Shown one piece after another: positions 928 through 17,700 of a stretch of DNA of 21,432 nucleotides. A model generated the notes under the pieces. It ran no database searches and was not told the origin of the DNA. It saw only the letters and a program-made list of their open reading frames with translations. The number at the start of each line of letters is the position of its first letter. The stretch's first letter is position 1. Made by a program: the position numbers and the translations under genes. Location: IMG/VR virus record IMGVR_UViG_3300033150_000194, positions 1-21,432 of that record; one strand, given 5' to 3'. This DNA is from a virus.

Positions 928-1800
928 ATGCCAAGCTTCAAGAAGAACACGACACTTTCGCTCTTCTTGATTGCGGTTTTAGCCGTGATGGGTTTAATGT
1001 GTGGTAGAACGCTACGCAGCCAGTCCAATGTGGTCGTGGCACCCGCAATCGAGGAGACTGTGCCAACGGACATTTATGATTTGTTGACAGTACTCAGGGA
1101 TGGCGAAGAAGTTGATCTAGCGGTAGATGTCGCTCAAGTTGTGGTTAATGCCCAAGAATTAGGCGAAGTTGGTGAGCTTATTCGATTTGATGTATCGGAA
1201 AGCAATGCTGAATCTTTTAAGTGGCTGCTCGTGCCGGAGTCTGTTGACTTTGAGGTTTATGATAATGGTAAGCGAGCGGTCTTTAGTGCTCGAAAGCCAG
1301 GTGAATATATGTTCATCGTTGCCTGTGCTTACAAGGGCACTGTTGACGTGACAACTCACGTTGTAACAATTATCGGGCTTGATCCACAGCCTGACCCAAA
1401 TGATCCTGATGACGAGCATCCTGTTGTGCCCCAACCTGCTGAAGGGGCCTCACTTATTGAATGGATGCCTTACTGGTGCTCTCAAGCAAAACGTCCCAAG
1501 GACGAAACGATGCGGCTGGCGGCCAGCTTTGAAAGTGTTGCGGCTACGATTTCAGCAGGTGTAAATACAACACCACAAGAGATCATTACAGCTACAAGCG
1601 AAGCCAACCGACAAGCCCTTGGTGTATCTATGCAGGCTTGGATGCCTGTTCTACAAAACCTTCAGGCTGAGTTGAAGACCCGGGCTGAAATGGGTATGCT
1701 AACAACTGCTGAACAACACGCGGAGACATGGCGAGAAATTGCTGAAGGTCTTCGCGGGTATGCAGCTTTGTTCATGGAGGCCACAGCAATTTTGAAATAA
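928..1800 (+). CDS. Membrane-anchored Ig/PKD-like domain protein
   Basis: 290 residues. An N-terminal hydrophobic segment (about 10-24, ending GLMCG) acts as signal anchor; the bases around Cys25 do not make a good lipobox because Met precedes it. Residues about 82-150 look like an Ig/PKD-type beta domain (KPGEYMFIVACAYKG, a typical last-strand pattern). An Asp/Pro-rich linker follows at 152-170, then a helical domain to the C-terminus. I associate this layout (short beta sandwich, Pro linker, helical tail of about 110 residues) with hypothetical proteins of Planctomycetes and their prophages; that is a memory of resemblance, not a search result. Function unknown, probably outside the cytoplasmic membrane. 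It directly precedes a Tat-leader protease, so a joint role at the envelope is plausible. Confidence 0.55.
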   Translation: MPSFKKNTTLSLFLIAVLAVMGLMCGRTLRSQSNVVVAPAIEETVPTDIYDLLTVLRDGEEVDLAVDVAQVVVNAQELGEVGELIRFDVSESNAESFKWLLVPESVDFEVYDNGKRAVFSARKPGEYMFIVACAYKGTVDVTTHVVTIIGLDPQPDPNDPDDEHPVVPQPAEGASLIEWMPYWCSQAKRPKDETMRLAASFESVAATISAGVNTTPQEIITATSEANRQALGVSMQAWMPVLQNLQAELKTRAEMGMLTTAEQHAETWREIAEGLRGYAALFMEATAILK

Positions 1801-1814
1801 TTGAGGAGGATGTG

Positions 1815-2846
1815 ATGAATAGGCGCGATGCTTTGAAGTTGATCCTGGGATCGGCGGGCGGTCTGTACACAGGGATGAATCTAATCACACCTAAATTTGC
1901 GCTCGGTGCGCCAAGCGACTTGTATACGGCTACAGAACGTCCACTATTCACAGGGTGGGTTGATGATTTTGAAGCCCGTAAGAAGTTCGTAGCAAAGCAT
2001 CGCTATCCATTCCTTTGCCAACAGGATGGACATATCAAAGGAACGGGCAAAGGTAAGAAAGTCTTCCTGTGGAAATTGTACGAGCAGGTTACTGGTGGCC
2101 CGCTCGTTCCTCACTACCAGACAATTGGTGATTGTGTTTCACATGTATTTGGGTTAGGAATTGACATACTTACAGCCGTTCGGATTTGCATGTTTTCCAT
2201 GCCAGAACGGTGGGTAGCAAAAGCGGCAACAGAAATCATCTATGCAGGTTCCCGCGTTGAGGTAGGCGGTGGGAAGGTTTGGGGCGATGGTTCAACTGGG
2301 GCCTGGGCGGCTGAATTTTGCCGCGCATGGGGAATTCTGCTACGGCAAAGGTACTTGAATGGTCTCTACGACTTCACCACGTATAGTGGCTTAAAAGCCA
2401 GAGAAATGGGTCGTCGTGGGCAAGGTGTACCTGATGAATTGGAACCTTTGGCTAAACTACACCCTGTCAAAACCTGTTCGATTGTAGGTTCTTGGGAGGA
2501 GTGTCGTGATGCTGTAGCCAATGGTTATCCAGTAGCCATGTGCAGTAACATTGGCTTCAATACAAAACGAGACAAAGAAGGCTTCTTACGGCGATCACGG
2601 CGACCGTGGTATCATGCAATGCTTATTATTGGAATTGATGACGAGTATCGGCGTCCCGGTGCTCTGATTCAAAATTCATGGGGTGAGCATTGGGTTAGCG
2701 GTCCAACAAGACATGACCAGCCAGCCGGAAGCTTCTGGTGTGATGCCAGCACAATCGACGCCGCTATGCGACAAGGGGATAGCTTTGCGTTGAGTGGTTA
2801 TGTTGGTTACCCAAGAGTTGACATCCCTAATTATATTTTATGGTGA
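1815..2846 (+). CDS. Tat-leader papain-like cysteine protease (C1-type)
   Basis: 343 residues. The N-terminus has a twin-arginine motif (NRRDALKLI, Arg3-Arg4), a Gly-rich hydrophobic stretch and a possible cleavage region near FALGA (28-32), so export in folded form is likely. The catalytic signature of the papain clan is present in order: Gln102 and Cys107 in QTIGDC, His267 in YHAM, and Asn287 in QNSWG. The family cleaves peptide bonds with a Cys-His pair, Asn orienting the His and Gln forming the oxyanion hole. There is no obvious long inhibitory prodomain. ATG 1815 is preferred over GTG 1812 because GAGGAGGA at 1803-1810 lies too close to the GTG. The substrate is unknown: host envelope proteins or virion proteins are both possible. 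The stop overlaps the upstream start region of the following reading frame. Confidence 0.75.
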   Translation: MNRRDALKLILGSAGGLYTGMNLITPKFALGAPSDLYTATERPLFTGWVDDFEARKKFVAKHRYPFLCQQDGHIKGTGKGKKVFLWKLYEQVTGGPLVPHYQTIGDCVSHVFGLGIDILTAVRICMFSMPERWVAKAATEIIYAGSRVEVGGGKVWGDGSTGAWAAEFCRAWGILLRQRYLNGLYDFTTYSGLKAREMGRRGQGVPDELEPLAKLHPVKTCSIVGSWEECRDAVANGYPVAMCSNIGFNTKRDKEGFLRRSRRPWYHAMLIIGIDDEYRRPGALIQNSWGEHWVSGPTRHDQPAGSFWCDASTIDAAMRQGDSFALSGYVGYPRVDIPNYILW

Positions 2847-2888
2847 GACAAATGAAAAGGAAAATCCTTTTCCTGTTAGGAGTCAGCT

Positions 2889-3119
2889 ATGTCACGTTTG
2901 CTCTCGTCATGGCGACAGGTGGTTCGATTGATACGATCAATCGGGCTAGCATTGTCGAAGGGCCAAAAGATTGTGGAGCCCGAGAAAATCGAGGAAACGA
3001 TGTACATTGTGAACGATTACCTGGACTTACAGAGGGTACCGAAAACCCAGCAGACCGAATGCGGCATGGATGGTTGCCGTTGCAAGCGAAGGCTGCTCAA
3101 ACAATCTCGGGAGAAATGA
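2889..3119 (+). CDS. Small Cys-containing hypothetical protein in overlapping frame
   Basis: 76 residues in frame 3 with an excellent TAGGAG site (2877-2882) six bases before ATG 2889. Its C-terminus has CGMDGCRCK (Cys58, Cys63, Cys65), a pattern like the tails of small secreted proteins. Its TGA overlaps the ATG of the thioredoxin (ATGA at 3116-3119), which argues that this frame is translated. The competing frame 2 is also open across the whole interval from ATG 2852 and starts with a good signal-peptide-like sequence (KILFLLGVSYVTFALVMA). Possible readings are: this gene as called; a frame-2 leader joined by +1 frameshift or sequence error to this frame; or a single long frame-2 protein ending in thioredoxin. 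I favour the first but not strongly. Confidence 0.45.
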   Translation: MSRLLSSWRQVVRLIRSIGLALSKGQKIVEPEKIEETMYIVNDYLDLQRVPKTQQTECGMDGCRCKRRLLKQSREK

Positions 3120-3436
3120 CGGCGACGATAGTTCAGGAAGACCGTACTAAGAACTTTCTTCCTAATTGCATGATTCTTTGGACAGTAGAATGGTGTGGAT
3201 CATGCAAAAAGATGAAGTCCGTTGTAGAGGAGCTTCGAGAAGAAGGCTATACGGTCTATGTTTTGGACTATGATGAAAACAAAGAGCTTGCTAAGAAAAT
3301 GGGTATCAAATCCTTACCTACATCGGTAATCTGGGAAGACAAGAAAGAAGTCAAGCGACACGTTGGAATAGTCAAGGTAGACAAGATCAAGAAGACCTTG
3401 AAGAAGAATGAAGGCCCTGACTATGATATTTTCTAA
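3116..3436 (+). CDS. Thioredoxin-like protein
   Basis: 106 residues, the usual thioredoxin length, when started at ATG 3116 (GGGAG at 3109-3113, ATGA overlap with the preceding small ORF). The active site WCGSC places Cys27 and Cys30 at the start of helix 2. The cis-proline loop is SLPT (Pro68), and the strand order around them (MILWTVEW, VYVLDYD, TSVIW) fits the fold. The family reduces or exchanges disulfides. As called it has no signal peptide and would act in the cytoplasm. If translation began at ATG 2852 in the same frame it would be a 194-residue, membrane-anchored protein with a thioredoxin end, hence potentially periplasmic. It could keep the neighbouring cysteine protease or Cys-rich proteins in the right redox state, which is inference from adjacency. 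Confidence 0.8.
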   Translation: MTATIVQEDRTKNFLPNCMILWTVEWCGSCKKMKSVVEELREEGYTVYVLDYDENKELAKKMGIKSLPTSVIWEDKKEVKRHVGIVKVDKIKKTLKKNEGPDYDIF

Positions 3437-3737
3437 GCTTCTACTTCTTTCACTGGCAATAGCGTCGATTTCGATGACCATCACGAAATCGAATGCAATG
3501 GAGTGGTTTCGACGGTTAGTGTCAAAGCTCGGGAGTTGGGTAGAGGAACTGTTTCACTGTCCATATTGTTTGAGTCATTGGCTTGCAACTAGTGGAGTTT
3601 TTGCATGGCTTGAAGGCTCTATCATCGAATTGATGATTTACACTATGGTTGTTGTAACACTTTCAAGCTTAGCTTCTTTGGGCATTATACATTTCTTCAT
3701 TGCACTTAATGCTCTTGAAGAAGGGAGCGAAGAATGA
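3423..3737 (+). CDS. Small membrane protein, DUF1360-like (CPYC motif)
   Basis: 104 residues with hydrophobic segments at about 4-21 and 69-96, and a shorter one near 52-64. The central motif CPYCLSHWLA (Cys46, Cys49) closely resembles the CPxCxGxW core of DUF1360 membrane proteins known from bacteria and phages; function unknown. The gene overlaps the end of the thioredoxin gene. ATG 3423 with AAGG at 3411-3414 is preferred; ATG 3408 in the same frame is an alternative that adds five residues. Its stop overlaps the next start (ATGA). A CxxC in a membrane protein right after a thioredoxin invites a redox link, and small membrane proteins in this position can also be lysis proteins; neither is shown. 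Confidence 0.6.
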   Translation: MIFSKLLLLSLAIASISMTITKSNAMEWFRRLVSKLGSWVEELFHCPYCLSHWLATSGVFAWLEGSIIELMIYTMVVVTLSSLASLGIIHFFIALNALEEGSEE

Positions 3738-4054
3738 GATTTAATTTTGCACGCAAAGCACGACGGATGGCACGGCGTCAATACCGCCGTGGAAAGATTA
3801 CCCGTCAAGAGTACGATCACGTATGCGAGGCTTCCCGCGATCCAGAAGTGGTAGCAAAGTGGGAGGCTGAAGTAGAGAAGCAACTTGGAGCACCTTGGAA
3901 AGTCGAAGGTAGCTTTCTTAACGGCTTCGACTTCTCTGCAATTTGGGAGTGGTTCAAGGAAAATTGGCCCACTATCCTAAAAATCCTGTTGACAATTCTC
4001 CCTTTGCTAATTTTGGAACCGAACCCAGAAAAAGAGGACGAGTCTGATTCGTAA
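3734..4054 (+). CDS. Small membrane protein with basic N-terminus
   Basis: 106 residues. Residues 1-25 are strongly basic (ARKARRMARRQYRRGK), the middle is charged and helical, and residues about 79-95 (PTILKILLTILPLLILE) form one transmembrane helix followed by an acidic tail. AGGGAG at 3721-3726 precedes ATG 3734, which overlaps the previous stop. No named family. One transmembrane helix plus charged tails is compatible with a holin or spanin-like accessory, but also with many other roles. Last gene before a strong hairpin, so it probably ends the accessory transcription unit. Confidence 0.55.
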   Translation: MRFNFARKARRMARRQYRRGKITRQEYDHVCEASRDPEVVAKWEAEVEKQLGAPWKVEGSFLNGFDFSAIWEWFKENWPTILKILLTILPLLILEPNPEKEDESDS

Positions 4055-4131: not shown

Positions 4132-4515
4132 ATGAAAGTCAAATGTCCATTTTTGCACTACCCTCGCTACGCGATGAAGGTCTACATGAAGGATGGTCGT
4201 GTGATTAACCAGCGAGGTATGTCACAACCTGAACTCAACGTCAATGTTGATGAAGAAGACGTGGTAACAGTTGTTGTTGAGTGTCGGGCAGAATGCGGCC
4301 AAGTTACTGGTACTAAGATACTTGTTGATGGAGTATGGGCACCATATAGTGAGGCAGCGCTGGATGAAGTGCTCAATCCTCCTGTTTCTGAACCAGAACC
4401 AGGACCGTGGGGTGAAGTTGAGGCTGAGGTTGAGGTTGAAGTTGAGGCTGAGGAAGCAGCAGACTTCAGTAGTGAAGTTGACTGTGAAGTCGATGAAGAG
4501 GATGAAGACGAGTAA
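4132..4515 (+). CDS. Acidic-tailed hypothetical protein upstream of terminase
   Basis: 127 residues. The first 85 residues look like a small mixed alpha/beta domain with Cys5, Cys51 and Cys55; the last 40 are a Glu/Val/Ala/Asp tail (EVEAEVEVEVEAEE) encoded by near-repeats of GAGGYT. A clear TTTGGAGAG site precedes ATG 4132. It lies directly before the large terminase, where a small terminase subunit often sits, but no helix-turn-helix or other TerS feature can be seen, so that assignment is not made. Highly acidic tails also occur in DNA mimics and in proteins regulating packaging. Function unknown. Confidence 0.55.
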   Translation: MKVKCPFLHYPRYAMKVYMKDGRVINQRGMSQPELNVNVDEEDVVTVVVECRAECGQVTGTKILVDGVWAPYSEAALDEVLNPPVSEPEPGPWGEVEAEVEVEVEAEEAADFSSEVDCEVDEEDEDE

Positions 4516-4519
4516 ATGA

Positions 4520-6187
4520 ATGAGCGGTCTGATAGACACTTTCCGCGAGGCAATTGCGGATGGCATGAAAAGTCGAACGATGACTACTTGTTCTCGGTGG
4601 GCTACGCATCGCCGTGTAATGGGCGAGCCATTCCCAGGCGTATACGGTTTTGACCATCATCCGTGGTGCAAGGAAATACACGACTCGGAAGCATCGTACA
4701 ATTCTGCGATGAAGGCCGCCCAAATGGGAGTCACGGAAGTCGCTATCAATCGAGCATTTTACACTGTCGATGTTCTCAGAAAAGATGTTCTATATGTTCT
4801 GCCAACATTGAATAATGCAAGCGATTTTGCGAAAGCTCGTTTCAATACGGCATTACTCTACAGTCCCTATCTCAAGAGACTTTTTACCGACACAAACACA
4901 ATCGGGTTAAAACAAGCCAGCGGAACGAATCTCTATATCCGAGGTTCGCGTGGAGATGCCAACCTAAAGTCAATTCCAGTTTCAACATTGATCCTTGACG
5001 AAGTAAATGAAATGGATCAGAAGCAAATCTGGTTGGCTTTGGAACGTTTGTCAGGTCACACCGAGAAATCGGTTTGGGCAATTTCAACCCCGACTGTTCC
5101 AAAGTATGGTATCCACAAACTGTTCCAGCAAGGTACACAAGAGCACTTCATGTTCAAATGTCCGCATTGCGGACGTTGGACAGAATTGATTTGGCCCGAT
5201 TGCATGGAGATTATTGGGGAAACTGTGTCCGACCCCCGTTGCAGAGAATCCTTCCTAAAATGTAAGGAATGCGGACACAAACTTGACCATGCGAGCAAAG
5301 CAGAATGGTTGAACATTGATAATTGTAAGTGGGAATCAACTGCAAATTGTGATGAAGACCATCGAAGCTTTCAGATCAATCAATTGTACAGTTTTACTGT
5401 CTCGCCCGGGGAAATCGTTGTTGCACATTTTCGGGGTCTGGGTGATGAAGCCGCAATGGTCGAGTTTCATAACTCCAAATTAGGTATACCGTATATACCA
5501 GCAGGCGGCTTGGTAACAGATACCGAAATCGAAAACTCAGTTGGTGGGTATTCAAAGAATGATTCTCGGCCTGATATTGGTGGTGAACGTTGCATCTGTA
5601 TGGGAGTTGACCAAGGTAAATTAAACAATGTCGTCATAATGGAGTATCTGTTCGACCAGTACAGCCGTGATTTGAATGTTGCAGCTTACGGTCGGCTACT
5701 TTGGGAAGGTAAGCTTCCGGGAAACAATTTTGAAGAACTTGATCGACTTATGCGTGAATGGCAAGTTTTGGGGTGTGTTATCGACGCTGATCCGCAGATC
5801 AATGATGCACGTCGATTTGCTAGACGTTTTCCCGGTTATGTCTTTCTGTGTCGCTATCGTCGAGGCGTCACCGGTAAGGAAATTCAATTGGCAGAAGAAG
5901 AGGGCGGCGCACCAATTGCCACCGTGGACCGAACAAACTGGTTGGACGCTGCACTAGGACGTTTTCATAGTGGACGTATTCAACTTCCTGCGGACGTAAG
6001 CATGGAATTTCGAGATCACATGAAAAATGTTGTGCGAACCTATGAAAGAGATGACTTAAACAATCCAAGAGCCGTCTATATTAACACTGGGGCAGATCAC
6101 TTTGTCCATGCGTTGACTTACGCAGAGATCGCTTTACCACTGGCGGCTGGTATTGTGACAGGGCAAGACCTTGGAACATTTCTGTAA
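4520..6187 (+). CDS. terL: Terminase large subunit (GpA-like packaging ATPase/nuclease)
   Basis: 555 residues. The ATPase half has a degenerate Walker A region near residues 65-72 (KAAQMGVT), as is usual in GpA-type terminases, a clear Walker B at 157-161 (LILDE), and a coupling motif STP at 189-191. Two zinc-knuckle CxxC pairs (Cys214/217 and Cys248/251) follow, again typical of the GpA group. The nuclease half shows acidic residues in the expected order: Asp364 in MGVDQG, Asp422 and Asp424 in IDAD, and Asp526 in GADHF. The enzyme drives DNA into the procapsid at the portal and cuts the concatemer. The start lies four bases after the previous stop, so translation is probably coupled. No small subunit is recognisable nearby. 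Confidence 0.9.
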   Translation: MSGLIDTFREAIADGMKSRTMTTCSRWATHRRVMGEPFPGVYGFDHHPWCKEIHDSEASYNSAMKAAQMGVTEVAINRAFYTVDVLRKDVLYVLPTLNNASDFAKARFNTALLYSPYLKRLFTDTNTIGLKQASGTNLYIRGSRGDANLKSIPVSTLILDEVNEMDQKQIWLALERLSGHTEKSVWAISTPTVPKYGIHKLFQQGTQEHFMFKCPHCGRWTELIWPDCMEIIGETVSDPRCRESFLKCKECGHKLDHASKAEWLNIDNCKWESTANCDEDHRSFQINQLYSFTVSPGEIVVAHFRGLGDEAAMVEFHNSKLGIPYIPAGGLVTDTEIENSVGGYSKNDSRPDIGGERCICMGVDQGKLNNVVIMEYLFDQYSRDLNVAAYGRLLWEGKLPGNNFEELDRLMREWQVLGCVIDADPQINDARRFARRFPGYVFLCRYRRGVTGKEIQLAEEEGGAPIATVDRTNWLDAALGRFHSGRIQLPADVSMEFRDHMKNVVRTYERDDLNNPRAVYINTGADHFVHALTYAEIALPLAAGIVTGQDLGTFL

Positions 6188-6199
6188 CGGAGGAAGACG

Positions 6200-8023
6200 A
6201 TGGCCTTCAAAGCCTTTTCCGTACTGGAAACTCGACACCCTCAATACTTTCACGATATGGCGTATTGGACGACGTGGCGGGAAGTGTATGATGGCGGTGA
6301 AGACTATACAAAGCTTTACCTAAAGAAGTTCACCGAACGTGAAACTGATGAAGATTTCTATTCACGTATGTCGATTACTCCAACACCGACGTATGCAAAG
6401 GCTGCCATCAATGATATACGTAATGCCATTTTTCAGCGTATGCGCGATATCATTCGACGTGGCGGTTCTAACGCTTACATGAAAGCTGTGGCAGGTGAAG
6501 GTGGCGGTGTTGATCTCAAAGGAAGTACCATGAATGGCTTCCTTGGCATTGATGTTTTGAAAGAAATGCTTGTCATGGGTAAAGTGGGTGTCTATGTTGA
6601 CATGCCACAACTTACGGGCCCAACTCTTGCTGATGTGGGTGGTGCTCGTCCTTACTTGTATTTGTATCAAGTTGAAGATATTTTGGCTTGGGCTATTTCC
6701 AAACCAGAAGAGCCAAGCGAGTTTCAAGCTCTACTTTTGCGTGATACAGGTATCGACTTTGCTCAACACGAGATGTACAATCTCAAACTTCCTGACAAGG
6801 AATATGAACGGTATCGTTTGATTTGGATTGATGAAGAGACAGGCTTTGTCAACATTCAATTCTATGATTCCGAATCAAACACAATTACACCCGATGGCTA
6901 CCCGTCTGATGGAACTCCAATCACTCTTGAATTACGACGGATTCCATTTGTCCTTTTCGACATTGGTGATAGTCTCTTGAAGGATGTAGCCAATCATCAG
7001 GCAGCCTTACTCAATTTAACATCAAGTGATGTAGCCTACGCTTTGAAAGCAAATTTCCCGTTCTATACCGAACAGCAAGATATGCGGGCAGTTGGCGATC
7101 ACTTGAAGCACCCTGTCAATCCAGATGGCTCAGCTTCAGCGGGTGGACAACGAGCATTTGGACGAGAAGTGCAAGTTGGTCCCACACACGGTCGAGCCTA
7201 TGATCTACGAGCAGAACGTCCTGGCTTCATTCATCCCTCACCAGAACCTTTGGAAGCTTCTTTGAAGCTTCAAGAGAAGCTTGAGGACGATATTCGGAAG
7301 TTGGTAAATCTTGCCGTAGTCAACAAGATTGGAAAACGAGCTACTTCGGCCGAAGCACTCAAGATGAGTGACCAAGGTTTGGAAGCTGGATTGTCCTTCA
7401 TTGGATTGGTATTGGAAAGTGGTGAGCGAAAGATTGCAGAACATTGGGCTGCTTATGAAGAGAAGCGACCAAAGCAGCGTAAAGTTGCCACAATTAAGTA
7501 TCCTGATCGCTACAGTCTCAAGACAGACAAGGATCGTATTGAAGAGGCGGACAAACTTGCAGAATTGATGTACACGGTCCCAGGCAACGTAGTGAAGAAA
7601 GAATTGTCGAAGAATATCGTAACAACCCTACTGGCTGGTAAGGTCAATGTTGATACACTCGACAAAATCTTCGCTGAGATTGATGCAGCCCAGTATACAA
7701 CTAGTAATCCTGAAATCATTATTCAAGCAAAAGAAGCAGGTCTTGTTGGTGAGCAGGTTGCATCAATGGCATTGGGATTCCCCGAAGACGAATACCTTCA
7801 AGCTCGTGAGGATCACGCAGCGCGAGCTAAACGTATTTTGGAAGCTCAAACATCAAGTAAACAAGAAGGTAAAAGACCAGCCGCTCGCGGTGTAGAAGAT
7901 ATTTCTATTTCCCCTGAAGAAGAAGGTAAAACTGAACGCAGAGAAGCCACAGACACAACGCTTAAAGAAACAACTAAGAAACCAGTTCGCGGCGAAGGTC
8001 GTAAAAAGCAAGAGGAGGAATAA
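6200..8023 (+). CDS. Portal protein (DUF4055-like)
   Basis: 607 residues, a normal portal size, placed directly after terminase with a strong GGAGGAAG site. The N-terminus (HPQY, then YWTTWREVYDGGEDY, then ETDEDFYSRM) matches the opening of DUF4055-type phage portals as I know them. The middle contains the stem and wing-like regions, and residues about 440-520 are helical. The last 60 residues are a charged, low-complexity tail rich in Lys/Glu. Portals form a dodecameric ring at one capsid vertex through which DNA is packaged and to which the tail attaches. Assignment rests on both position and family resemblance. Confidence 0.8.
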   Translation: MAFKAFSVLETRHPQYFHDMAYWTTWREVYDGGEDYTKLYLKKFTERETDEDFYSRMSITPTPTYAKAAINDIRNAIFQRMRDIIRRGGSNAYMKAVAGEGGGVDLKGSTMNGFLGIDVLKEMLVMGKVGVYVDMPQLTGPTLADVGGARPYLYLYQVEDILAWAISKPEEPSEFQALLLRDTGIDFAQHEMYNLKLPDKEYERYRLIWIDEETGFVNIQFYDSESNTITPDGYPSDGTPITLELRRIPFVLFDIGDSLLKDVANHQAALLNLTSSDVAYALKANFPFYTEQQDMRAVGDHLKHPVNPDGSASAGGQRAFGREVQVGPTHGRAYDLRAERPGFIHPSPEPLEASLKLQEKLEDDIRKLVNLAVVNKIGKRATSAEALKMSDQGLEAGLSFIGLVLESGERKIAEHWAAYEEKRPKQRKVATIKYPDRYSLKTDKDRIEEADKLAELMYTVPGNVVKKELSKNIVTTLLAGKVNVDTLDKIFAEIDAAQYTTSNPEIIIQAKEAGLVGEQVASMALGFPEDEYLQAREDHAARAKRILEAQTSSKQEGKRPAARGVEDISISPEEEGKTERREATDTTLKETTKKPVRGEGRKKQEEE

Positions 8024-12206: not shown

Positions 12207-12691
12207 TGTTGGATACAAATTTGGCCCGCTGGACGATGGCATCTATTGCCGTTTATTTTAAGAACGTGGCTGATACAATCAACCTTACGTTCTTCGTAGA
12301 AGGTGTAGATGAACGAGAGCCTGATACAATGCGTCAGGAACACGCAGAATTGAGGGTTAGTGGTCCATATATTCGTGAATTGAGTCACGACTACTGGCGT
12401 GTTCACATTGACATAAACATCATACTGACGGACTACATGAAAATGTCCACAGAAGATGCTTACGACATCAATCGTTGGGGCGGTGCGTTCCTCACTGCTA
12501 TGATGGACCCAATCCCAATCTTTCGATTTGGGACTGGACCTGACGATGATGGTTCCCTAGTTGGTTGTTTAACCCAGCGGAAGGGTTTTAGTGAACCAGC
12601 GCGTCTGATCCACTTTGGTCAAGTAAGCCGTGAAGACCGAATCCGGCAGGCCGTTGTGGATGGTCGATTTGAAATGTACCTTTCGATGTAG
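12206..12691 (+). CDS. Tail terminator / tail completion-like protein
   Basis: 161 residues. The order of elements (N-terminal helix RWTMASIAVYFKN, strand LTFFVEG, LRVSGPYIRELS, DYWRVHIDINIIL, then IPIFRFGTGPDDDGS and a final FEMYLSM) recurs in phage neck clusters immediately before the tail tube gene. Proteins at this place form the ring that ends the tail tube and joins it to the head. ATG 12206 overlaps the preceding stop, so translation is coupled. No catalytic motif seen. Name given by location and pattern, not by a confirmed family match. Confidence 0.5.
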   Translation: MLDTNLARWTMASIAVYFKNVADTINLTFFVEGVDEREPDTMRQEHAELRVSGPYIRELSHDYWRVHIDINIILTDYMKMSTEDAYDINRWGGAFLTAMMDPIPIFRFGTGPDDDGSLVGCLTQRKGFSEPARLIHFGQVSREDRIRQAVVDGRFEMYLSM

Positions 12692-12701
12692 GAGTTGAAC
12701 A

Positions 12702-13460
12702 ATGGCACGAATTGAACTCCGCGATGCGACCATTCGCATTAAGGATGGTCTTAGCGGCAGTGCAACCATCTCTGAGAGTACTCCCAATGCAAGCGATACG
12801 GATGTTGATATTTTGTCACCAAACCTGAATACAACTGATACTGAATTGGTGCCAGTTGGGGCTCGGTTTACTGTCAACACCGTAAACAACACCACAACCT
12901 ACACGGTCACTGCACGTACACCGACGGACACAAGTCCGACAACAAACATTGAGTTCTCGCCAGCCTGGGGTACTGAAACTCCGGCGCAGAACGATGTAAT
13001 TACTTTCCTACCTCAACAGATTGATGTTACCATTGGTGAAGGTAATCTGACTTGGACAGAAGCCAAGGAATATGAATACCTGCTTGATCGTGGTAATCTT
13101 GACACTGTGAAGGAAGGTGATGAGCAACCTCTTGAGGTTTCGCTTGAATTTGTGTACGAGCACGTTACTACCGGAACGAGTGAATCCATCACCCCTGTCG
13201 ATGCTGTAAAAGGTATCGGTGGGGCGGATGAATGGGTTTCCAGTTCGGATGACCTGTGTGAACCGTATGCAGTGGACCTTGAGGTTCTTCACTGTGTGCC
13301 ATGTGGTAGTGATGAAGATGAGCGAATCGTCTTCCCTGACTTCCGTTACGAAAGCCTGGAGTACGATCTTGGTGAAGCCACGATTTCTGTCGGCGGTCGA
13401 TGCAATGCGAGCGATGCGATAGTGACACGTGGTGATTATGCGGATGATTGCCCGTCATAA
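12702..13460 (+). CDS. Major tail tube protein (probable)
   Basis: 252 residues, beta-rich, with TAGGAG eight bases before its ATG. It opens IELRDATIRIKDGL and closes with a typical tube-like run (DFRYESLEYDLGEATISVGGRC). Residues about 35-105 look like an inserted beta mini-domain (GARFTVNTVNNTTTYTVTA, then IEFSPAWG, then AQNDVITFLP). Five cysteines in the last third (186, 198, 201, 234, 250) include a CVPC pair, unusual for a tail tube. It is followed by a hairpin terminator and then the chaperone and tape measure, the standard order around a tube gene. Decoration or Ig-like tail protein is the alternative. Confidence 0.65.
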   Translation: MARIELRDATIRIKDGLSGSATISESTPNASDTDVDILSPNLNTTDTELVPVGARFTVNTVNNTTTYTVTARTPTDTSPTTNIEFSPAWGTETPAQNDVITFLPQQIDVTIGEGNLTWTEAKEYEYLLDRGNLDTVKEGDEQPLEVSLEFVYEHVTTGTSESITPVDAVKGIGGADEWVSSSDDLCEPYAVDLEVLHCVPCGSDEDERIVFPDFRYESLEYDLGEATISVGGRCNASDAIVTRGDYADDCPS

Positions 13461-13478
13461 TCAAAGTTGAACCTGTAT

Positions 13479-13504
13479 AGTGGGGTGGGCTAACCCACCC
13501 CACT
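13479..13504 (+). terminator. Stem-loop terminator after tail tube gene
   Basis: AGTGGGGTGGG (13479-13489) pairs perfectly with CCCACCCCACT (13494-13504) around CTAA. It is followed by TTCTTCC, a modest pyrimidine run. Probably a partial terminator that lowers expression of the chaperone and tape measure relative to the tube. Confidence 0.75.
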
Positions 13505-13536
13505 TTCTTCCACCTTGTAAGAGGGAGAATGAAAAG

Positions 13537-14082
13537 ATGAGAATTGGTGGTGTAGAAGTCAAAGGTCCGAATGAAGAAGTTCTTGTCCTTCCTCGATTGG
13601 CTGGCGACATTGTGATTAAGGCTCAAGCTGTTACAGACATGAGCGAATTTGAAAAGCTTGTTCCTGAACCAAAACCGCCTGGGAAGCTCACGAAAGATGG
13701 TTGGGTTCCCCAGCTAAAAGACGAGACATATCGGCAAAAACTTGCTAACTACAATGAGCAACGATTTGCCTACATGGTTCTCCGATCATTGGAGCCAAGT
13801 GAGATCGAATGGGAAACCGTCGTACTTGACAATCCAAAGACTTGGAAGAACTGGGATCAAGAGTTGCGTGAGGCTGGTTTCTCTGATGTAGAAGTCAACC
13901 GTATTGTCGTCTGCGTAATGCAGGCAAATGCACTGGATGAACGTAAGTTGAAGGAAGCTCGTGAGCTTTTTCTACTTGGGAAGGCGGAGGAATCAAACGA
14001 ATCCTCTGGCCTCCCAACAGAACCGGAGAATACGCAATCTGGCGAGCCTGTGAACGAGTTGGAGTCCGACCCCCAAGAGTAA
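13537..14082 (+). CDS. Tail assembly chaperone (gpG-like), short form
   Basis: 181 residues from ATG 13537, with GGGAG at 13523-13527. The frame is open further upstream through the terminator hairpin, but that part is not believable coding sequence. Residues 1-155 are a compact domain ending in helices (ELREAGFSDVEVNRIVVCVMQANALDERKL); the last 30 residues are a Ser/Pro/Glu/Asn-rich linker. Location between tube and tape measure, size, and this linker ending near a slippery site are the standard signs of the lambda-G type chaperone, which coats the tape measure during tail assembly. The -1 frame beyond it is open and conserved-looking (see the extension entry). Confidence 0.65.
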   Translation: MRIGGVEVKGPNEEVLVLPRLAGDIVIKAQAVTDMSEFEKLVPEPKPPGKLTKDGWVPQLKDETYRQKLANYNEQRFAYMVLRSLEPSEIEWETVVLDNPKTWKNWDQELREAGFSDVEVNRIVVCVMQANALDERKLKEARELFLLGKAEESNESSGLPTEPENTQSGEPVNELESDPQE

Positions 14083-14243
14083 AGGAATCTTGGGATGACT
14101 GTGATACATGGACACAGGCGTTGATGCTTGCTTATGACCAAACACGGCAACATGAGGAGCTTGAAGAGAAGAAAGCTCTCATGGGTGCTGGAAAGAAAGC
14201 TCCTCAAATTCCATCACGGAAGAGAGGTAGGGGACGACGATGA
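14070..14243 (+). CDS. -1 frameshift extension of the tail chaperone (gpGT-like)
   Basis: The -1 frame is open from 13965 to TGA 14241-14243 without a plausible own start. It encodes KESWDDCDTWTQALMLAYDQ then a QHEELEEKKAL helix and a basic tail, which looks like real protein. The stop overlaps the next ATG (ATGA at 14240-14243), as expected for a translated frame. The C CCC C run at 14070-14074, three codons before the zero-frame TAA, allows the CCC-decoding tRNA to move back one base and yields a 235-residue fusion (179 plus 56). C CCC CAA is not a perfect heptamer, and a slip elsewhere between 13965 and 14082 is possible. The coordinates given assume the C-run. Confidence 0.6.
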   Translation, partial: PPRVKESWDDCDTWTQALMLAYDQTRQHEELEEKKALMGAGKKAPQIPSRKRGRGRR

Positions 14244-14755
14244 GATTCACTCCCAATTTTACAGCCTTCGACTTAGATATAGCCGGTTATAAACGGCATC
14301 TGAGTGACTACATGGAGGATTGGTTGAAACAAGCAGGGCGTGAATGGCTTCAAGCAACTGTTCTTGCAGTCATACCTACGTGGTCCAAGGCGTCCAGGGC
14401 CACGTTCCAAAAACTTGCCAATGAACTCGGGATGGTTATTCCTTATGGCCCTCAATTGAGTCGTAAGGATCGTACTGCACTGGGTCTCTCTACAGGTAGT
14501 GGTAGTGGTTTGGAACTTGACCCTGGAGCTTCACGATGGCATTTCGTGTATAACAGTACCCTTCGGTATCTTGCCTACAACGAATACAATCGTGTCGTGT
14601 ATGGACAAGCCCCAAATGTATTTTCGCGCAAAGGATTGCGCAATCCAACGCCCTATCACTTCCAAGAGAAAGGCCAGAAAGCGTTTGAGGATTTCACACG
14701 CTTTACGGTACTCCCTGACCCCTACCAGTATTTCAAAAGGGTTAAGGTGACCTAA
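14240..14755 (+). CDS. Phage minor tail / gp10-like morphogenesis protein (tentative)
   Basis: 171 residues. The N-terminal helix carries WLKQAGREWLQATVLAVIP and is followed by WSKASRATFQKLA, then a Gly/Ser-rich loop (STGSGSG) and a Tyr-rich region (YNSTLRYLAYNEYNRVVYG). The order of a long helix, a turn with W-S-x-A-S-R-A, and a later loop recalls HK97 gp10-type tail completion proteins, though the usual position of that family is before the tube rather than before the tape measure. The start overlaps the -1 extension stop and the stop overlaps the tape measure start, so all three are translationally linked. Function uncertain. Confidence 0.4.
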   Translation: MRFTPNFTAFDLDIAGYKRHLSDYMEDWLKQAGREWLQATVLAVIPTWSKASRATFQKLANELGMVIPYGPQLSRKDRTALGLSTGSGSGLELDPGASRWHFVYNSTLRYLAYNEYNRVVYGQAPNVFSRKGLRNPTPYHFQEKGQKAFEDFTRFTVLPDPYQYFKRVKVT

Positions 14756-17700
14756 TGCCGGAAGAAATTACACAGCGACTAGGCTTTGATGCGTCAAAGG
14801 CTATCCAGGAATTGGGTCGCTTGCGAGGAGAGCTTAACAACTTTAAGCAATCCTTACAGAGCGTATCTGGCGCTCTGCGCAAGTTCCCCGGTAATGCTAC
14901 ACCAGCAATCAAAGCATTGAGACAGCTTGCATTGGAAGCTAACAATGCAAGAATGGCTGTTCAAGGTCTAGCGACGGCTGGAGTACCGACACAGCAGCTA
15001 CAAACTTCAGCGCAGACGGCCGCCGCTTCAATGGGTGGTCTTGCTACACAGTCACAAGCTGCTGCTCAACAGGTTGGAACAGCGGTCGCTGGTTCTTTTA
15101 ACCAGGCTGCTCAATCAATACAAGGGGCAGGACAAGCTGCTGGTCAAGCAGCGAGAGCCGTGCAGCAAGGTTCGGCACAGACTACTGCGGCAGCCGGACA
15201 GGCGGCGAGGGCGCTGGATAATGCTGGTGAGGCAGGTCGAAATGCTGCCAAAACAATTACACTCTCCTGGAAGACTGTTCTTCGAGTCATCCAGGCACAA
15301 TTAATTGTGCGCGCTATTAGTACTATTGTTAGTGCTTTCAAAGATGCTCAAACAGCAGCAGCGGAGTTCTCTGTAGCTGTTGCTGAAGCATTCACAATTT
15401 CTGGTGGGCAGCTTGGCTCAATGGATCAGATGAATGCTTCCATTTTGGAACTGGCTCGAAGTCTTGGGCTAACAGGGCAGGAAGTTGCTGAAGGTGTCTA
15501 TCAAACTTTGTCGAACCAGGTTGTTGAAGCTGGTGACGCATTAAGGTTTACAAATGAAGCGGCTCGATTATCTATTGCGACCAATTCTGAACTACGAGAA
15601 TCAGTCAACGCTATATCATCTGTGATGAACAGCTACAATCTCAACGTAGCTGAGGCAGAACATGTATCTGACGTATTGTTCAAGACGATTGAGCTTGGTC
15701 GTTTGCGTCTAAGTGAGTTTGGTGATGTTCTTGGTCGTGTATCACCGTTAACAGCGGCTCTTGGAATCCGTTATGAGGAAATGGCGGCTGCACTAGCTGC
15801 TATGACTCAGAAAGGTGTCCCAGCCCATACCGCCATCACTCAATTGACCCAGGTTTCTCAGAAGCTTTTGCGACCTACTCAAAAGCTGCAAGAACTCTAT
15901 GAAGAATGGGGTGTAGAAACAGGTCCAGAAGCCATTCGACGTTTCGGTGGTTTGCAAGGTGTCTTATTGAAGATGAAGGATGCCACTGCTGGGAGTGATA
16001 AGGAATTTGCTGACTTGCTTGGTCGTGTTCGAGCTATGGTTGGTGCCTTGAACCTGACTTCTAATGAAGCCAATGCGCTAACTGAAGCTTTGGAGGCTAT
16101 GGAAAATAGCGCTGGTGCCACTGGAAAAGCTCTCGAAGAGATGCGGAGTTCAGCAGGTCGGCAAGCAGTGGAAGCATGGAATAACCTTGGTGATACCATG
16201 ATTGAAGTCGGGCAGAAGTTGCTCGAAATTACAACGCCAATGGTTAAGGCATTGGATGCTGTTTTACGTGACATGGACCTTCTCAAAGCGATTGCAATAG
16301 GAACAATCGCAGGTCTTGCTGGTATGAAGCTTGCTGCTATCGGCTTGACAGGGGCTTTGTCAAGTGCTGCCGGTGCTGCTGCGGCTTTGGGTACTGCTTT
16401 ACTTACCATCGCTCCAATCATTCTTGCCATTGGGGCAGCAATGGCAGCAATCAAGATTGGTGAATGGATTAGTGCTTCTCTTGATACTGTTTCTGAATTG
16501 GAACAAGTGGCGAGTCGAAATGAAAAACAATTAACAAGGATGCACGAACTTCAAACCCAAAAGCGTATCGCTGCTACTCGTAAGGAATTTGAAGAACGTC
16601 GCAAACTTACTGGTGAATTCTTTTCAGAAGCTTCAAAACAATATCGAAGAGATTTTGATATTTTGGAAGCTTCAAGTAAAGCTGTAGGCAAGACTTTTGA
16701 GTCTACCCTTGAAAACTTGCTACAAAGACGCCAAGATGCAATCAAAGCACTCAAGGATACAATTCTTGAAGCTGATAGTGCCATTAAAGAGTCGATGGAG
16801 GAAGTAACTTCAACTCAACAAGCAATTGCTGATACTGCATTCAAGCGTGAAAAGCGACACATGAGCGCACGGCAGCAATTATGGGCTGAGATTGAACGGG
16901 CTCAACGAACGGCTGCTGAAGCTCGAAAAGCTTACGCTGGTGCTGGTGCTAATGAAGAAGCGGCACGGGCGGCTCGTGAATTGTCACATTTGGCAGAGAA
17001 ACGAGCACAAGATGCTATATCCCATGCTGAAGAACTTGGAAATTATGGTGACTTGAGGCGTGCTGAGAATGAGCTTGATAAGATTCGTAGTGATCGAATC
17101 AAAGGAGAAATCTCATTCCAGATTGAACGCAAAAAGCATCAATCTAAAGCGCACAAAGAACATCTTCAACAGCTTGAGGCTGAGGGTGAAGCCTTAGAAC
17201 AGCTTCTAAAGAAGGCAAAAGAATTGCTGGACCCATTCGAGAAGGGTGAGTTGAAGGGTCCAAAGCAAATGCGTGAAGATTTCGAGCGGGTAGTCGAAAT
17301 GATGCCCGAAATCGAGCAGAAACTTGATGCTGCCTTTGACTTCAGCATGTATGAGAAGCTTGGTATCGGGGATGCAATGGGCCAATTGAAGCAAGGTGTT
17401 CTTGATGCTTTGAAAGATGCTAAGATCAATTGGGATCAAGTCATCAATGAGTTTGCAGGAAAGCTTCAAGCTCGAACATTCACGGCTCCTGTTAAGCTTG
17501 AAATTACTAATGAGTACATCATTGAAGAGTTCGTCAAGAAATTTGGTGAGATTGATCCTCTTAGAGACCCCGGTAAAATGGGTGCTCAGATGGAGGAAGT
17601 TCTTGAAGGTATCAAAACTAAGTATGAAGACCTTACCGAATCTATTCAGCAAGATAATGCTCAAGCTCTTGAACAAGTAATTGCTGCCACAAAGAAATTG

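Follow-up and report, generated by a model that had tools for sequence, protein, structure and literature searches.

The late region of the phage record analysed here encodes a C1-like, papain-type cysteine protease with a predicted twin-arginine (Tat) leader, and its stop codon is overlapped by the gene for a predicted exported thioredoxin. We consider it about an even bet (a probability of roughly 0.5) that protease and thioredoxin together serve a planctomycete-infecting phage as its lysis module, opening the host envelope. The window, meaning the whole stretch of DNA that was analysed, corresponds to one entire IMG/VR record, classed as linear and 21,432 bp long, and is thus probably just part of the phage's genome. 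The protease gene lies among the following features:

928 to 1800, + strand: protein with an N-terminal transmembrane (TM) or signal segment, an Ig-like domain and a helical tail, directly 5' of the protease (tblastn synteny, window clade)
1815 to 2846, + strand: Tat-leader papain-like (C1-type) cysteine protease (motifs, alignment, model, Foldseek)
1815 to 1910, + strand: predicted twin-arginine leader (MNRRDALKLILGSAGG...), with cleavage at about residue 31 (sequence motif)
2840 to 3436, + strand: thioredoxin (WCGSC), either secreted or anchored in the membrane, its gene overlapping the stop codon of the protease gene (Pfam Thioredoxin, E=3.7e-14)
3408 to 3737, + strand: DUF1360 membrane protein with a CPYC motif, present in part of the window clade (Pfam E=1.3e-5)
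3734 to 4054, + strand: small protein, hydrophobic at its C-terminus and a conserved part of the cassette (synteny)
4132 to 4515, + strand: acidic protein between the cassette and the terminase (synteny)
4520 to 6187, + strand: terminase large subunit, TerL (phrog_675 E=1.6e-90, Pfam GpA_ATPase)
6200 to 8023, + strand: portal protein (phrog_145 E=2.4e-30)

An initial annotation of this DNA had placed the protease gene in a phage late region between fibre-like ORFs and TerL, which is correct, and genes for TerL, portal, a P22-type coat protein and tape measure follow it on the 3' side. The "Ig-like" label of the 928–1800 product was read from its sequence, with no Pfam match. The DUF1360 protein has a conserved CPYCLSHW, and it is pure speculation that it might serve as electron donor to the exported thioredoxin.

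The protease ORF spans 1812/1815–2846 on the + strand and its product has 343 residues, with the ATG at 1815 better spaced from an AGGAGG than the GTG at 1812. Counting from the ATG, the catalytic set is Gln102/Cys107/His267/Asn287, or 103/108/268/288 from the GTG. Relatives were gathered stepwise from IMG/VR, where the family has hundreds of members; the final two scans yielded 174 and 534 confirmed relatives, with 80 kept from each, and one phage C1-like protein (L004) was excluded as its match spanned just 55 residues. In the 198 ORFs of 196 loci, with identities as low as 28%, Cys is present in 197, His and Asn in 196 each and Gln in 190. The missing Cys, His and Asn belong to halves of two genes, each split over two ORFs, and no intact copy lacks Cys, His, Asn or the Trp of the NSWG motif; conservation of the Gln/Cys/His/Asn set is thus far beyond chance. 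The complete papain-type catalytic set reported earlier is therefore real, and the homologues in these loci, whose lack of Cys-His-Asn would have formed part of the case against the earlier proposal, retain the triad. The two split genes (L048 3705–4699 and L058 3472–4475) consist of overlapping ORFs, reflecting either a frameshift or an assembly error.

AlphaFold2 modelling from a 71-sequence alignment gave a papain fold (pLDDT 88.1, pTM 0.85) in which the catalytic Cys opens a long helix, as in papain; an earlier model built from 8 close sequences reached a pLDDT of 32 and was discarded. The comparison with C1 peptidases that had been proposed returned xylellain as the top PDB match in Foldseek (E=1e-9), followed by cathepsins B, S, K and L and plant papains, with moderate TM-scores of about 0.4–0.7. 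The family profile likewise reaches the xylellain/cathepsin/papain group by sequence, from E=7e-4. Against Pfam PF00112 the protein scores 17.9 bits, under the cut-off of 20.7, and we therefore term it C1-like and not a listed member; PHROG searches gave nothing useful for it, and neither Pfam nor PHROGs includes a dedicated model for the family. Two hallmarks of peptidase family C1, the Gln-Cys-His-Asn order and the papain fold, are present in the window protease, and the gene probably encodes an active C1 (papain)-type enzyme.

In nine loci the protease ORF is extended to 670–1061 aa by large in-frame inserts with intein-like ends, all located at catalytic motifs. These lie directly 5' of the catalytic Cys in L009, L038, L044, L144 and L091–L093, and as the insert immediately precedes it this Cys would be the +1, first post-splice residue. 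Others lie right past the His motif in L054 (L094 is a second copy of that contig) or right past NSWG in L010 and L044, the latter holding two inserts. Pfam detected Intein_splicing slightly below the cut-off in L009 (8549–10717) and LAGLIDADG_3 in L010 (9015–11051), and the other candidates, including L044 (6913–10098), were recognised by their ends alone. This placement suggests that the active site is strongly constrained. In addition, ten loci (L165, at 12234–14009, L166, L167, L170, L172, L177, L184, L200, L211 and L230) have a second, longer relative of 515–591 aa located 3' of the protease, in which Gly replaces the catalytic Cys.

The leader MNRRDALKLILGSAGG fits the TatP-style pattern RRx[FGAVML][LITMVF] and has the features expected of a Tat substrate, with RRxxL in the n-region, a moderately hydrophobic h-region and an AXA-like site. 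The twin-arginine motif occurs in 19 of 19 distinct loci of the window clade; among 324 other ORFs from these loci ~4 have it, and several leaders of the clade have AXA-like sites (e.g. PAYA|A in L011). At the level of motifs, the earlier proposal of a Tat-exported papain-type protease is thus borne out. In the tree the Tat loci form one clade with a support of 100/100, and its sole motif-less row is the split gene L048, the first part of which starts MDRRNALK. Leaderless relatives, which the initial annotation overlooked, make the Tat leader a trait of this one clade and not of the whole protease family.

Also missed at that stage were the thioredoxin partner and the cassette of membrane genes. 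The gene overlapping the protease stop codon encodes a thioredoxin domain with a CxxC motif (WCGSC; see above), and the same pairing occurs in L010, L047, L049 and others. An exported thioredoxin is found among the first downstream genes in all 19 distinct Tat loci, a count that is not independent for the loci that seeded the profile, which was built partly from the window clade; independent support comes from the Pfam matches in the window, L010, L047 and L049. Among leaderless loci the profile detected a thioredoxin in 34 of 131, 56 more encode an exported protein in which CxxC occurs two or more times, and in many loci no thioredoxin was found with the profile used.

Membrane proteins are common on the other side of the protease, where, in 123 of 148 loci, the product of the gene immediately 5' contains a TM segment. 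Proteins of ~70 aa with two TM segments form a family that is present in 52 leaderless loci; 51 of these have the gene within ~1.1 kb on the upstream side of the protease gene, often abutting it. In 15 loci of the window clade a different family of small membrane proteins is encoded upstream; no small two-TM gene was seen beside the protease in the window itself. This profile-based synteny is better evidence than counts based on hydrophobicity, by which small two-TM ORFs were only modestly enriched (54/148 versus 23/144). Matches of the small membrane proteins to holin PHROGs are weak (E 0.0014–0.025), and a holin identity would follow from topology and position, the two-TM genes apparently standing where holin genes stand relative to endolysins.

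The initial annotation had also stated that no conventional peptidoglycan hydrolase is visible in the window, and this holds for the six families searched there (Phage_lysozyme, M15_3, SLT, NLPC_P60, Amidase_3 and CHAP), none of which matched; the protease itself has no peptidoglycan-hydrolase match in Pfam or PHROGs. The proposed scan of the remaining genome was run on long relatives, and in 17 of these (1.37 Mb) the same six families and Amidase_2, which was searched in relatives only, were absent, with controls matching. Likewise, Phage_lysozyme and Amidase_2 were absent from 31 further records of 103–244 kb (5.2 Mb), and the full lists of Pfam families matched by selected ORFs, 24 families for G011 and 22 for G003 together with G004, include no peptidoglycan hydrolase. 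These negatives apply to records that may be incomplete, and such searches could miss an endolysin that is embedded in a tail gene or belongs to a family outside those searched. The same relatives showed two other protein types. Several Amidoligase_2 proteins are encoded in G003, G004 (L026–L032) and G005, making up 7 of the 47 scanned ORFs in G003 and G004, and one ORF of the close relative G011 (L071–L075) is a second protease, matching Trypsin_2 at E=4.9e-23.

The sole plasmid match, and only cultured relative, is on Planctopirus limnophila plasmid pPLIM01 (NC_014149.1; L235, L236). Its homologue (PLIM_RS21800) has 24.5% identity to the window protease, with a tblastn E of 0.6 and a family profile E of 1.4e-32, keeps Cys, His and Asn, and lies upstream of TerL with a hydrophobic N-terminus in place of a Tat leader. 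It is preceded by a gene (21–1133) homologous to window 928–1800 (E=1.9e-19 in a profile search of this one target). The reading of gene 21–1133 as a holin fused to an Ig-like protein was rejected: its N-terminus is hydrophobic, yet neither small-membrane-gene profile matches. The plasmid is phage-like, with terminase, portal, capsid and tail genes and a separate ClpP-type head maturation protease, and there is no endolysin among its annotated features; the 2010 genome paper makes no mention of phage (PMC3035269). Furthermore, G015 (162.7 kb; L067) encodes two adjacent DUF1501 proteins with RR leaders (14107–15339 and 15336–16610), one at E=7e-110, for which the best plasmid match is to Singulisphaera. 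The pPLIM01 homologue and these DUF1501 proteins make Planctomycetota the likely host group, to which the host of the window's own phage may also belong. The earlier link to a host with a protein-rich envelope thus gains support, through homology to pPLIM01. Planctomycete envelopes are described as SDS-resistant, proline- and cysteine-rich protein stabilised by disulfides, as reported for P. maris, with comparable data lacking for P. limnophila according to the same paper (PMC3035269). Planctomycetes are now reported to possess peptidoglycan as well (PMC4432640).

If the pair does form a lysis module, the operon of Ig-like signal protein, protease, thioredoxin and DUF1360 protein would be expressed late, and the folded protease would be exported via the host Tat pathway or, in leaderless relatives, released by a small holin-like protein. 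The anchored thioredoxin would then reduce the disulfides of a cysteine-rich wall protein and the protease would cleave the opened protein layer (or sacculus peptide), at which point the cell would burst. With one enzyme opening disulfides and the other cutting chains, the pair would suit a disulfide-linked protein wall. The Tat leader, the N-terminal anchor of the pPLIM01 homologue and, in leaderless relatives, a holin-like neighbour may represent three delivery routes for one enzyme, a variety also seen among endolysins. More tentatively, with odds nearer one in three, the system as a whole would be aimed at a disulfide-linked protein wall and not at peptidoglycan, an exported protease and a disulfide reductase replacing the endolysin through these three modes of delivery. 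We know of no C1 protease that cuts peptidoglycan, which, planctomycetes having peptidoglycan, counts against a lysis module.

Among the alternatives, envelope remodelling or superinfection exclusion survives best, although we think it unlikely. Here the exported protease and thioredoxin would modify or degrade proteins on the infected cell's surface, such as receptors or rival phage proteins, and no lysis would follow. Export and a redox partner are compatible with such a role, and pPLIM01 resembles a resident phage-plasmid that retains the protease gene. However, the gene lies in the late block, adjoining TerL or two-TM genes, and is retained in phages of 103–244 kb that gave no match to either of the two commonest endolysin families; exclusion genes typically vary among related phages, which also counts against this role.

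Somewhat less probable still is a virion-associated protease that digests the outer protein layer at entry for genome injection. A protein-rich wall has to be crossed at entry too, the gene has fibre and tail genes nearby in the window, and the majority of relatives are leaderless; a Tat leader and an exported thioredoxin are nevertheless ill-suited to a virion component, and the adjoining genes encode mostly membrane or exported proteins. We give slightly less weight again to a true peptidoglycan endopeptidase that has diverged toward planctomycete wall peptides, with the thioredoxin keeping its catalytic cysteine reduced. CHAP and NlpC/P60 peptidoglycan hydrolases have a papain-like fold, and the position in the cassette, with no other endolysin found, would fit. 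On the other hand, NSWG, the Gln-Cys-His-Asn set and the best matches are those of C1 proteases and not of CHAP or NlpC, and no wall-binding domain is seen in the protease. A head maturation (prohead) protease, to which the nearby TerL and portal genes might point, is highly improbable because of the leader and the separate ClpP-type head protease of pPLIM01, and both the predicted export and a gene position that is not between portal and capsid genes argue against it.

The lysis-module reading matters as the planctomycete envelope is debated and protein-rich, and the family points to lysis by proteolysis combined with disulfide reduction; in the open-access literature searched we found no account of how phages lyse planctomycetes. 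The family also comprises hundreds of environmental phage records, while tblastn of GenBank phages with family and pPLIM01 proteins gave no convincing match at the sensitivity used. GTDB scans found no relative of the protease using short peptide patterns, which may miss more distant homologues on planctomycete chromosomes, whether cellular or in prophages. The same gene was found next to terminases in other phages, as the initial annotation had suggested might be sought. Since the homologue is carried by P. limnophila DSM 3776, which is genetically tractable (PMC4910669), the idea of a lysis role is directly testable.

Compared with known systems, xylellain of Xylella fastidiosa (PDB 3ois) and the C1A cathepsins and papain share with the window protease the papain fold, the Gln-Cys-His-Asn order and NSWG. 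The window protease differs from them in its ~15% identity, an N-terminal region with an IKGxGKGK motif, its phage origin with a thioredoxin partner, and a Gln-x4-Cys spacing where papain has Gln-x5-Cys. Peptidase_C1 proteins of uncultured Caudovirales in BFVD (e.g. A0A6J5TCZ4) are alike in phage origin and papain fold, at 12–16% identity, and no PHROG family matches the family of the window protease. CHAP and NlpC/P60 endolysins use a fold of the papain-like superfamily for lysis, a parallel that holds if the lysis reading is right; unlike theirs, the expected substrate would be protein and not peptidoglycan, and neither CHAP nor NLPC_P60 matched in the window or long relatives. Finally, the methanogen phage pseudomurein endoisopeptidases PeiW and PeiP (C71), which differ in family, triad and host and for which we know of no thioredoxin partner, set a precedent for a cysteine peptidase acting as endolysin against an unusual wall.
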